A stretch of 52,445 bases of DNA from Verrucomicrobiota bacterium (GTDB taxonomy: Bacteria; Verrucomicrobiota; Verrucomicrobiia; Limisphaerales; UBA9464): contig VHCX01000021.1 in the NCBI GenBank assembly GCA_016871615.1, positions 1 through 52,445 of the forward strand, in the 5' to 3' direction. Below are positions 22,333-51,487 of this stretch, one piece after another. A program made the translations under genes and the position numbers. How positions within the stretch are numbered: the first letter of the stretch is position 1; each line of letters opens with the position of its first letter. The notes beneath the pieces were generated by a model. The model was not told the origin of the DNA. It did not search any database and was given only the letters and a program-made list of their open reading frames with translations.

Positions 22333-23536
22333 GGCGGGTCGAAACTAGCGCGGAGTCTGCGAAAGAGAAGTCAAAGGTCGTTCCGGCGCGCCATGGTCTG
22401 GCGCGGCGGCGAGGGAACGACCGAGGACTGGGTAACCCTCGGAGTTGGGGACAGGCTCGTTTTGGCCGTGGTCTGGACATCTGGTTCAGCCGTCGGTCGA
22501 GGGTGCCCCCTCGGGGCGATCCTGGGGCGCGTGCTTCCGGGACATGGAATGGAGCCAGCCAAGAGAGCCAAGAGGGACAGGCTCCGCACCCCACGGATAC
22601 CCGCACCGAAGTCCGCAGACCGATGTCCGGCACAATTGTCCGGGCAGGAATCCGAGGAATCCGGGGACAGGCTCGAGGCACGGGTTCGGGGCTCGAGAAG
22701 GAGGTAGCCCGATGATCCGGGCCCGCATTCGAGGGACAGGCTCCCTCTGTCAGCATCGTTCCGAAACCCGCAGAAAGTTGCCGGACTGAACTCTACGCTT
22801 TTTCCGTGTCCATGAGGACGTTTTCTTCCGGAATCAGCGCCAGCGTTTCTTCCTTCTTCAAACTGGGGCCAAGAGCCTTCCAAGCCCGGCAGGCCTACTC
22901 AAGATCCGCGTCGACAATCAAAAAGCCGATACCGCATCGATGATCCGTCGAGTTTCTGGGAAAGTTGGATTTCAAACCGGCAGGTTTCGTTGGTTTTCAA
23001 ACCGTCGCTGACATCCCTGGGCAGGGCCTCGATGGGCATTCCTAGGGGAGACTTCCCGGGGATAGGCCAAGAGATCCACGCTTGGGGACAGGCTCCGAGA
23101 CCGCCTCCGAGACCGCCGGAATCCCGGGTTGGCCTGGACGCCTGGTCTGGGAGGTGGCAGGTGGTGGCGGTGACGGACGCGGTGGCCGTGGGAAGTGTTT
23201 TGACGGCGGAGGGGCGCCTGGTGGAGCTCAACTTCCAATGCGAAAGTCTTTGACAGTTCGGCCCGTTCGTCCGATCAACCTCGGCAGCCGCGGGCGATCG
23301 CGGCGCTCATCCAGAGTGGCGGAGGGAACGGCCCAGTGAAGCCACGGCAACCGGTGAAGCCTCCGTGCTTCGCGTCCAGGTGCCAAATCCGGTCGAGGTC
23401 GTAGGACTTCGGCAAAGATGAGAAGAGTCGACTCCTCCAGAGCTTCACCCTTCTCGTTTCGCGAGGAGGGTTCCATTTCGGGCCACCTCGCCAGCCGGAT
23501 GCGCGCCGGGACCACGCCTCGGGAAGCTTATCGATT
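22333..23536. repeat. 1.2-kb gap with repeat cluster D and possible gene debris
   Basis: Five copies of the core, all in the GGGACAGGCTC orientation, start at 22447, 22574, 22663, 22733 and 23084. A decayed version (GGGGATAGGCC) lies near 23060. No intact gene is recognisable. The reading frame ending at 23253 on the plus strand (TDAVAVGSVLTAEGRLVELNFQ) has GC-rich third positions and could be the remnant of a coding 3' end, but no family was recognised. Nothing was identified between 23254 and the thrC start. Confidence 0.7.
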
Positions 23537-30468: not shown

Positions 30469-30543
30469 TGGTGCGCGATACAGGGTTCGAACCTGTGACC
30501 CCTACCGTGTCAAGGTAATGCTCTACCACTGAGCTAACCGCGC
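30469..30543 (-). tRNA. tRNA-Val (anticodon GAC)
   Basis: Read on the minus strand the gene starts GCGCGGTTAGCTCAGTGGTA and folds as a complete cloverleaf. The acceptor GCGCGGT pairs with ATCGCGC (one G-T pair). The D stem is GCTC/GAGC. The anticodon stem TTACC/GGTAG... encloses the loop TTGACAC, with GAC at positions 34-36. The T stem is ACAGG/CCTGT with loop TTCGAAC. The discriminator A and the CCA end are encoded. Confidence 0.95.
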
Positions 30544-47873: not shown

Positions 47874-48788
47874 ATGTCGAAACCAGCGCTCGGGCGCGGC
47901 TTGGCCAGTCTGCTGCAGGAGGAAACCGGACGGGGTGCCGTGAAGGCACCTGGTCTGGTCGTGGCGAAGACGCCTCCGGCCGACGGGTCCGATCCGGTGG
48001 GCATCGCCGAAACGGCGGTTCCGGCCGTGCCTGCCCAGGGGTCGGCGCCCCCGATGGTCCTCGAACCGTCCGAGGTTCTGGCCGCCACGGCTTCGGCCCC
48101 GGCCCCGGCCCAGGGTAGGGCGGGGGAGGCGGGTTCTGAGGCGGTTCCCTCCGACCCCGGAGTTGGCGCGCAGATGCCCGGGAGTGCCGGGATCGCCGGG
48201 AGTGCCGGGATCGCGGAGCCTCTGGCTCGACTCGTGTCGGAGGAGACCACCGTCGAGTCCATCGCGCCGTCGCCCGCGCCTTCGGCGGCAACACCTTCCC
48301 CGGCGACGTCCCCGCTCGCGACGCCCGGGTCGGATCGTGGGGTGCGACCGGCCGCGGGAGCTCCCCCGGCGGGGCAACCGGCGCCCATCGCGGCGGTGGG
48401 ATCCGGGGCCGCTCAACCGATTCCAGCCTTGGCGTCGGCCTCGGCGCCCGCGCCTGCGCCAGCGTCTGCGCCAGCGCCGGCGTCTGCGTCTGCGTCGTTG
48501 CCGGGCTGGACGGTGCCGGCGCTGGTCGCCGGCGACCTGGTGGTGGTCTTGAGCGCCATCCTCTGGGCCCAGTGGGGTCAGGGCTGGGCGCGCTGGCCGT
48601 GGATTGCGGCCCTGTTTGCCGCCGGATGCTCCCAGGCGCTGGTGGCCCTGTTCCTGACCCGCCCCGGTGGCGCTTCGGCGGCGCGTCCCTTCGCTCCCCG
48701 GTCTCCGTTGGCACCCGGACCCGCCCCGGGCATCCGTGTGCGCTTCGTCGAGGGGCAAATTCCGGGACGTCGCGGAGATCGTCGCTGA
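47874..48788 (+). CDS. Membrane protein with ParB-like N-terminal peptide and Ala/Pro-rich linker
   Basis: 304 residues, unlike any complete family I recognise. The N-terminus MSKPALGRGLASLLQEE closely resembles the N-terminal ParA-activating peptide of chromosome-partitioning ParB proteins (consensus LGRGLxALL). None of ParB's CTPase/nuclease-like, helix-turn-helix or dimerisation domains follows. About 190 residues of Ala/Pro/Ser-rich, low-complexity linker come next, with short GSAGIA repeats. Two hydrophobic segments (about residues 213-232 and 241-262) and a basic tail (RPGGASAARPFAPRS... RRGDRR) end the protein. The N-terminal peptide would be cytoplasmic if both segments span the membrane. 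Coding character is supported by GC-rich third positions. Confidence 0.65.
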   Translation: MSKPALGRGLASLLQEETGRGAVKAPGLVVAKTPPADGSDPVGIAETAVPAVPAQGSAPPMVLEPSEVLAATASAPAPAQGRAGEAGSEAVPSDPGVGAQMPGSAGIAGSAGIAEPLARLVSEETTVESIAPSPAPSAATPSPATSPLATPGSDRGVRPAAGAPPAGQPAPIAAVGSGAAQPIPALASASAPAPAPASAPAPASASASLPGWTVPALVAGDLVVVLSAILWAQWGQGWARWPWIAALFAAGCSQALVALFLTRPGGASAARPFAPRSPLAPGPAPGIRVRFVEGQIPGRRGDRR

Positions 48789-49814: not shown

Positions 49815-50252
49815 ATGGATCGCAAGACTTGGGGAATCCTTCTGCTCGTGGCGGCCGGCGTGGCGGTCCCGATGTACCGGCTCACCGACTGGTTCAGCCG
49901 CAAGGCTATTCAAGTGAGCGTGTCCTTCCGCCCGCTGCGGCAGGCCGATCCCGGCGCCGCGCTGCCGGTCGTCGTGGGCCTCGATCAGGACTATGAGCTG
50001 AGTTCCCTGGTGGTCTCGGAGGTCCCGCCCGAGAAGACCAACGCCACGGGCCGGGTGGTCTGGCGTCTCGAGAAGCAGGGCCGGGGCGCTCCGACACGGG
50101 GCTTCCTGTATGGCCAGCCGCCCGAAGGCCTGCAGCCGGCGGCCAAGGCACCGGCCGAGCCGCTCAAGGCCGGGTCGTCCTACGTCGTCGAGGTCGCCGC
50201 CGGCAACGTCCGCGGCTCGACCGTCTTCCAGGCCCGTGGTCCGGAGGAGTGA
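49815..50252 (+). CDS. Small membrane-anchored protein of unknown function
   Basis: 145 residues from the ATG at 49815. One N-terminal membrane segment (about residues 6-20, [15 protein letters not shown]) is followed by a periplasmic, beta-rich domain of about 110 residues ([10 protein letters not shown] ... [21 protein letters not shown] ... VVWRLEKQG ... [18 protein letters not shown]). No motif was recognised. It is divergent from the pilin-like gene and lies 176 bp upstream of the SPFH gene on the same strand. Confidence 0.6.
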
Positions 50253-50274
50253 GCCCACCCACCCTGGCCCACCC

Positions 50275-50307
50275 ACGTGGGACCAACGTGGGACCAACGT
50301 GGGACCC
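50275..50307. repeat. Three tandem 11-bp repeats (ACGTGGGACCA)
   Basis: ACGTGGGACCA occurs at 50275-50285 and 50286-50296, then ACGTGGGACCC at 50297-50307, in exact tandem. It lies between the small membrane-protein gene and the SPFH gene. It is unrelated to the GGGGACAGGCT family. It may be a binding-site array in the SPFH leader. Confidence 0.8.
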
Positions 50308-50428
50308 ACGCGGTAAGCCCGTTGACGCCCTTGGAAACAGGGGTGGCAGATTCCGGTTCCTTGGCTGCGACTCTCTGGCGCAACACCGCGCGACCGTCGC
50401 CGGCCACCGACCTGAAAGGACCACGACC

Positions 50429-51487
50429 ATGGGCATCATCGACTACCTCAAGACGCAGTTCCTGGAGATCATCCAGTGGGAGGACGACTCGCGCGACACG
50501 CTGAGCTGGCGCTTCCCCGACCAGGATCAGGAGATCAAGAATGGCGCGCAGTTGCTCGTCCGCGAGTCGCAGAAGGCCCAGTTCGTGTACCTCGGCCAGT
50601 ACGCCGACACCTTCGGTCCAGGCAAGCACACCCTCAAGACCGAGAACATCCCGGTGCTCAGCACGCTGCTGGGGTGGAAGTACAACTTCGAGTCGCCCTT
50701 CAAGTGCGACGTCTACTTCGTCAACACCCGGCTCTTCACGGGCAACAGGTGGGGCACAAGCAACCCCATCATGCTGCGCGATCCGGACTTCGGCATCGTG
50801 CGGGTGAGGGCCTTCGGCACCTACGACTTCCGCATCGTGGACGTGCCGGTGTTCCTCAAGGACGTGGCCGGCACCGACCATCATTTCCGCATCGACGAGT
50901 TCCAGGACACCATGCGCTCGCGCTTCGTGAGCGCCTTCAGCGACGCATTGGCGAGCTCCAAGGTGCCGGTGCTCGACCTCGCGGCCCGGTACTCGGAGCT
51001 TGGCGAGGCGCTGCTGCCCATCCTCAACCCCATCCTCACGGCCAAGTACGGCATCGAGCTGGGCAGCTTCATCGTCGAGAACGTCAGCGTGCCGCCGGAG
51101 GTCGAGGGGGCCATCGACACGCGCTCGAGCATGGCGGCGATCGGCAACCTCAACGACTACGTGAAGCTGAAGCTGGCCGAGTCACTCACCCAGCCGGGCG
51201 GTGGTGGTGGTGGCATCGCCGGCCTGGCGGCCCAGTTCGCCCTGGGCACGCAGATCGCCCGCGACCTGGGTGCGGGCGTTCCCCCGGTGATCGGGGCGGC
51301 CGGGGCGTCCCCGTCGGCGCCCCCGGTCCTCCCGGAGCTGCTGTCGCCGGCCGATGTCGCGAGGGCGCTCGCGGTCTCCGAGACCGACGTGCTGGCCGCC
51401 CTGGCCGACGGGTCGCTCAAGGGCAAGAAGATCGGCTCGGCGTGGCGCATCCCCCGCGCCGCGCTCGACGAGTTCCTCCAGCATTGA
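50429..51487 (+). CDS. SPFH-domain (YdjI/virion-core-like) protein fused to an excisionase-type HTH
   Basis: 352 residues. The N-terminal part (1-230) is an SPFH/band-7 domain of the YdjI type: [25 protein letters not shown], a [24 protein letters not shown] block and [44 protein letters not shown] follows. A Gly-rich flexible stretch (about 250-300) leads to a C-terminal domain at 304-352. [38 protein letters not shown] has the form of a MerR/excisionase helix-turn-helix (HTH_17). Relatives usually end in a zinc ribbon, SHOCT or GYF-type domain. The start is ATG at 50429; no transmembrane segment is evident. Confidence 0.82.

Follow-up and report, generated by a model that had tools for sequence, protein, structure and literature searches.

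A putative membrane-anchored protein with a ParB-type ParA-binding peptide, and its family in one order of Verrucomicrobiota

Chromosomal ParB/Spo0J proteins combine an N-terminal LG(R/K)GLxxLL motif with a CTPase fold, a helix-turn-helix (HTH) domain and a dimerisation domain. The polar membrane proteins HubP and TipN, both large and multi-domain, are also said to influence ParA. The N-terminal ParA-binding motif of ParB is given as LG(R/K)GL in PMC12704722. In Myxococcus ParB, as described in PMC12462528, each substitution of L11, L15, L18 and I19 strongly impairs ParA interaction or recruitment, while R13 is implicated in activation and is predicted to lie beside Y81, E82, D110 and E117 of ParA; Lys takes the place of R13 in roughly half of the chromosomal ParBs.

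The placement of a ParA peptide on another scaffold is a known principle. Borrelia ParZ, which carries a ParB-like peptide, is described as a centromere-binding protein that took ParA control over from ParB (PMC9712426). Myxococcus PadC, which has the ParB fold, a ParB-type CTPase domain and a motif that binds ParA, also binds bactofilins and as a second ParA-binding protein beside ParB ties ParA to a fixed subcellular structure, according to the accounts in PMC5703909 and PMC12704722, where ParA binding was measured on N-terminally truncated PadC. PomX, TlpT and McdB, known or suggested ParA/MinD activators, carry short basic peptides at the N-termini of unrelated scaffolds; according to PMC7993993, a ParA/MinD activator can arise when an N-terminal stretch rich in positive charge is grafted on a domain that interacts with proteins, DNA or membranes. 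In the same source the N-terminal part of PomX is Ala/Pro-rich and its C-terminal domain forms filaments.

Here we analysed a 52,445-nucleotide stretch of DNA from a Verrucomicrobiota bacterium (contig VHCX01000021.1), hereafter the window, in which one gene probably encodes a membrane-anchored ParA-binding protein that would activate or tether ParA; from its sequence and that of its relatives we put the probability of this reading at roughly 0.6. The coordinates, strand and translation of the open reading frame at 47874-48788 were all confirmed, and its parts, with two RNA genes or elements elsewhere in the window, are as follows.

47874-48788, forward strand: whole open reading frame, 304 amino acids, ATG start, stop included; 17 homologues align from the same start
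47874-47924, forward strand: putative ParB-type ParA-binding peptide MSKPALGRGLASLLQEE (homologue alignments, codon comparison, mapping on Myxococcus ParB)
47925-48509, forward strand: disordered Ala/Pro/Ser linker, residues 18-212 (195 residues; AlphaFold2 pLDDT blocks of 41-58, motif scan)
48510-48575, forward strand: membrane helix 1, residues 213-234, with invariant Asp221 (alignments, AlphaFold2)
48591-48659, forward strand: membrane helix 2, residues 240-262, with invariant Gly251 (alignments, AlphaFold2)
48726-48785, forward strand: conserved basic C-terminal tail PGIRVRFVEGQIPGRRGDRR (P285, R288, V289 and F291 invariant in 18 of 18 sequences)
23304-23424, forward strand: SAM riboswitch
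30469-30543, reverse strand: tRNA-Val

The match to the ParB tip can be read within the same genome. A complete ParB (ParB_N, HTH_ParB and ParB_C by Pfam) is encoded in the window genome; it begins MSRPALGRGLGALM, and its N-terminal motif recurs nearly letter for letter in the window protein. Residues L6, R8, L10, L13 and L14 correspond to L11, R13, L15, L18 and I19 of Myxococcus ParB with identical L-G-R-G-L-x-x-L-L spacing, so that a fitting hydrophobic or basic residue stands at every position tested in that protein. ParB N-termini were read in 13 family-bearing genomes, and the 12 genomes other than the window's share the motif. The likeness to ParB claimed in a preliminary description of this DNA thus extends beyond the organism's own ParB, and the LG(R/K)GL motif as it is given in PMC12704722 is present in the window protein.

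The rest of the protein is unlike ParB. Pfam returned zero domains for the window protein at E values up to 0.1, with no ParB CTPase fold (PF02195), HTH or C-terminal dimerisation domain, all of which were matched in the organism's own ParB. In Pfam and NCBIfam scans of 16 family members, ParB, CTPase and DNA-binding domains were likewise absent, including the ParB-like CTPase domain of the PadC type, and none of the 11 families listed was a ParB domain; the scattered weak matches (best E values 0.0068 and 0.0011) fell nearly all in one member. The domain searches thus agree with the preliminary description, which had seen no DNA-binding or CTPase domain, and by their result the window protein is not a ParB, since the CTPase fold, the HTH and the dimer domain were not found. 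A ParB fragment or pseudogene was also considered and rejected, as ParB genes coexist with the family and residue 12 separates the two groups.

At that position, the 12 tabulated ParBs (one of the 13, from G010, was left out since it begins like that of the window genome) all have Ala besides LGRGL, whereas Ala is found in 0 of 20 tabulated family members. The tips of ParB and of the family are therefore not fully equivalent. No co-variation of R and K with ParB was seen; the family member carries K in two of the genomes, and ParB carries R in both. A consistent difference at residue 12 is what would be expected if affinity for ParA were tuned, and the peptide evidence would serve equally well a protein that binds Soj-type ParA mainly to rival ParB or to hold it at the membrane, as a decoy or brake, instead of moving or anchoring cargo. 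We consider such a role unlikely, given that the Myxococcus peptide, as PMC12462528 describes it, needs the ParA dimer and activates it, and does not hold monomers.

We compared the peptide among homologues at increasing distance. When the window protein is aligned with 17 homologues, drawn from its genus and a single sister genus, all 18 sequences share MSKPALGRGL and L13 without change, and D221, G251, P285, R288, V289 and F291 as well. The codons of residues 3-10 differ synonymously among these relatives while the residues stay fixed, and by this codon comparison the peptide is under purifying selection. A set of 16 sequences that reaches other families, with identities to the first row down to 24%, retains M1, L6, G7, L10 and L13, together with the helix-1 Asp and the helix-2 Gly, among its invariant residues, and on these alignments the peptide is the best-conserved part of the protein. 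In a diverse set of 20 sequences, the three Leu and the first Gly are found in all 20 and the second Gly in 18, the basic residue is R in 18 and K in 2, and the last position is L in 16 and M in 4. The peptide lies at the start, or a few residues from it, in homologues from other families of the order.

By itself the motif carries little weight, since the bare 9-codon DNA pattern occurred 1-6 times per genome (real copies included) in 19 genomes, about as often as the reversed control (0-5). These counts are what a chance resemblance or a spurious reading frame in GC-rich DNA would give, but such an origin is at odds with family-wide conservation at the protein start combined with synonymous codon change. 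With the homologue alignments, the synonymous codons and the order-wide profile search taken together, we rejected a chance motif and regard its probability as negligible.

AlphaFold2, run on the window protein with a 7-sequence alignment, predicted a short helix at residues 11-16 and disorder up to about residue 212, both at low confidence, followed by a two-helix hairpin (213-234 and 240-262) with a pLDDT of about 80, compared with 53.7 overall. The same hairpin was predicted for the homologue L215, with the helix of the first motif limited to residues 11-13 and the second motif (see below) without a helix. The layout proposed earlier, of a disordered linker, two membrane segments and a basic tail, is borne out by these models and the alignments. 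The long Ala/Pro linker is real in the window protein but confined to its close relatives, and the tail PGIRVRFVEGQIPGRRGDRR as such is missing in homologues outside the window's family in the 16-sequence alignment. With two predicted helices, both ends of the protein would lie on one side of the membrane, presumably with the N-terminus in the cytoplasm; a positive-inside comparison of the charges flanking the hairpin gave no clear orientation signal.

The low-confidence helix at residues 11-16 (11-13 in L215) also fits a peptide that serves otherwise, either as an amphipathic membrane helix or as a ligand of a non-ParA partner that reads the tip of ParB, and Noc is described as a ParB relative with membrane-binding activity. 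This is an improbable use in our judgement, as the hairpin already provides an anchor that makes an extra membrane helix unnecessary, and conservation of the exact ParB motif, including the first Gly, appears to go beyond the needs of amphipathicity.

Homologues that combine the peptide with the membrane segments, a check proposed in the preliminary description, were found both in the genus and in other families. Among 59 related genomes searched, 19 contained matches, including 18 of the genus's 19 genomes (the window's counted). When 293 genomes sampled from the order were searched with a profile, 238 gave a match at E values up to 0.001; with at most 11 candidates scored per genome, the genomes assigned a family member number at least 80 and represent 24 families and 41 of 118 sampled genera. 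The match runs from model position 1-4 to position 120 or beyond (model of 169), that is from peptide to hairpin, in 75 of the 80, while five are partial, with split matches in G000 (the window genome), G003 and G010 and matches truncated by contig ends in G017 and G137. Sequences were read in 26 of the 80 genomes and in 8 genus genomes outside the sample; the other 54 were assigned by profile match alone. The remaining 158 of the 238 genomes gave N-terminal-only or hairpin-only matches among the matches listed, and in 213 of the 293 no family member was recognised by a search of limited detection, in keeping with a patchy distribution.

Beyond the order, among the matches listed for 387 genomes drawn from the phylum, peptide and hairpin occurred together in the window's own genome only. 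The others were either N-terminal only, in frames of about 300-585 amino acids that we took as ParB by position, or hairpin only, one of which (L132) was read. A frame of 88 amino acids in G571 with both parts was rejected because it lies out of frame inside another gene. A scan of named genomes for the peptide pattern matched 304 stretches, 13 of which were read and confirmed as relatives (L227 over residues 1-28 only). All 13 are labelled as metagenome assemblies (MAG), under the names Verrucomicrobia or Verrucomicrobiales, Pedosphaera sp., Verrucomicrobia subdivision 3 and, in four cases, Akkermansia muciniphila; we take the last four titles to be mislabelled. By these searches the window protein belongs to a real family, which has no name in Pfam or NCBIfam.

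Outside the window's close relatives the homologues are 114-211 amino acids long where the length is known and consist of the peptide, a short linker in which a further motif, G[VLM]xxL[LIVM] (the second motif), occurs, the hairpin and a short tail; two of the homologues read have an extra C-terminal domain. The second motif was found in 17 of 19 sequences, the exceptions being the window protein and one close relative, against 0.18 expected from shuffled linkers, a contrast that is somewhat flattering since the pattern was picked after viewing the sequences. It looks like a degenerate extra copy of GLxxLL.

Similar two-helix hairpins were observed at the start of two GrpE-like proteins (L200:1198-2055 in G130 and L201:869-1807 in G063; Pfam GrpE E values of 4.8e-12 and 1.4e-7). 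To our knowledge, a membrane-bound GrpE relative seems unusual. A hairpin of the same type lies near the start of an apparently coiled-coil protein of 513 amino acids from another family of the class (L132:1456-2994), for which no Pfam match above the cut-off was obtained. Comparisons of four other family members with three such hairpin proteins gave z values of 2.7 to 20.5 in 12 pairwise comparisons, two of them below the best shuffle, while for the window protein the three comparisons gave z values of 0.4 to 2.4, all below the best shuffle. The hairpin thus seems to be a shared Verrucomicrobial module, judging from these alignment scores, with a kinship that for the window's version is not visible pairwise; its presence in GrpE-like and apparently coiled-coil proteins makes it look like a generic anchor. 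Conservation of the membrane part without the peptide had earlier been named as evidence against a ParA-related role, and the hairpin does occur without the peptide, but in these other kinds of protein.

As to the partner, the window genome encodes a Soj-type ParA (G000:C30). When it was mapped onto 8RAY, six of ten pocket positions were identical (Y81, D110, V116, E117, L150 and L155) and two conservative (L152I and L192V), with E82R and L187Q different. Of 22 genomes with a family member that were searched, 21 have a Soj-type ParA (profile search, 10 of 11; sequence search, 13 of 14; three genomes being in both), and those from the sequence search were 60-73% identical outside the genus; in G010 the gene is split between two frames. 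Profile and sequence searches did not find a Soj-type ParA in G021 (94% complete; L042, L094), where ParB and a family member are present, which may reflect an assembly gap. A partner of the ParA/MinD type had been suggested at the outset: the likely target is a ParA, with this Soj-type ParA as the candidate and most of its pocket kept, and not a MinD, since MinE binds MinD at a different site according to PMC12462528.

A second ParA-like ATPase (G000:C105, L111:1246-2106) was observed in the window genome at a distance of about 2 kb from parB; it lacks the hydrophobic loop near Walker B that marks the Soj type. Its position, together with the case of G021, would suit a family member that positions cargo with another ParA-like ATPase such as this one instead of Soj. 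This is very unlikely, however: the protein aligns Thr and Gln with the Myxococcus pocket positions L152 and L155 (Thermus Soj itself has Pro at 152), whereas the Soj-type ParA keeps the loop, and further ParA matches above 100 bits were found in just 3 of 11 family-bearing genomes (G000, G004 and G130, of which that of G000 was read).

The family gene is not encoded with parA, and only in 5 of the 16 genus genomes (G001, G005, G007, G010 and G015) does it lie 7-14 kb from parB on the same strand. No conserved operon partner was seen among the neighbourhoods viewed: the neighbours include CinA and proline racemase in the window, and elsewhere methionyl-tRNA formyltransferase, an SNF2 helicase, IMP dehydrogenase and Maf. 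A scan for promoters and terminators gave nothing useful. In one subclade of the genus (L013, L014, L015 and L016) the homologue is located near an ScpB-like frame with a glycine-transporter/TRIC-like frame in between (by Pfam in L016 only). Downstream in the window, a small frame at 49827-50252 has an apparent single N-terminal membrane segment and no Pfam match, and a similar frame adjoins the homologues in L005 and L019. An 11-bp unit of the ACCAACGTGGG type is repeated in tandem, in three nearly identical copies (50271-50313), upstream of a gene (50408-51487) for an SPFH/Band 7 protein that carries an HTH_17 at its C-terminus.

For a membrane-anchored partner of Soj-type ParA, we infer the following mechanism. 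The first 14 residues, a near copy of the N-terminal peptide of ParB, would contact ParA, and the membrane-held peptide would stimulate ATP hydrolysis by ParA at the membrane, so that a fixed membrane site could capture nucleoid-bound ParA-ATP and then release ParA. The outcome may be a ParA distribution shaped in competition with ParB, or a ParA-coated nucleoid tethered to the envelope, and the protein may thereby contribute to positioning the origin, tethering the nucleoid or coupling with division.

Among the described systems, ParZ, known here by its description in PMC9712426, shares the ParB-like N-terminal ParA peptide and differs in its centromere binding and in having replaced ParB in the control of ParA, whereas in the window genome the peptide is still present on ParB, and the additional protein that carries it has a predicted membrane anchor. 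The role of PadC as a second ParA-binding protein would be paralleled here, putatively; PadC has its CTPase domain and binds bactofilins (PMC5703909, PMC12704722), while in this family no such domain is found and a membrane hairpin is predicted. The peptides of PomX, TlpT and McdB, the latter two known by description, are characterised in PMC7993993 as enriched in positive charge and not as LG(R/K)GL. An integral-membrane protein with a ParB-type peptide was not found in the titles and abstract openings of the open-access papers that our searches listed, and none of the papers on ParA/ParB and Verrucomicrobia found there by title and abstract opening has chromosome segregation in Verrucomicrobia as its topic. 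The earlier statement that no described family has this layout holds for Pfam and NCBIfam, where the family is unnamed, but not for the principle, which is known from ParZ, PadC and PomX.

The odds are about even, in our estimate, that the family represents a new class of ParA regulators, an order-wide Verrucomicrobial group of integral-membrane proteins in which a ParB tip, often with a second degenerate copy, is set on a two-helix anchor and makes the membrane a ParA-activating surface beside ParB-parS. If true, it would provide a minimal natural peptide-plus-anchor module, in which mutation of R8, L10 or L13 is predicted to cost the anchor its ParA. ParA would then be read out at two places, at parS and at the envelope, which would change models of gradient-driven origin positioning, and one group of Verrucomicrobia would have a second, membrane-fixed handle on the machinery that moves its chromosome.
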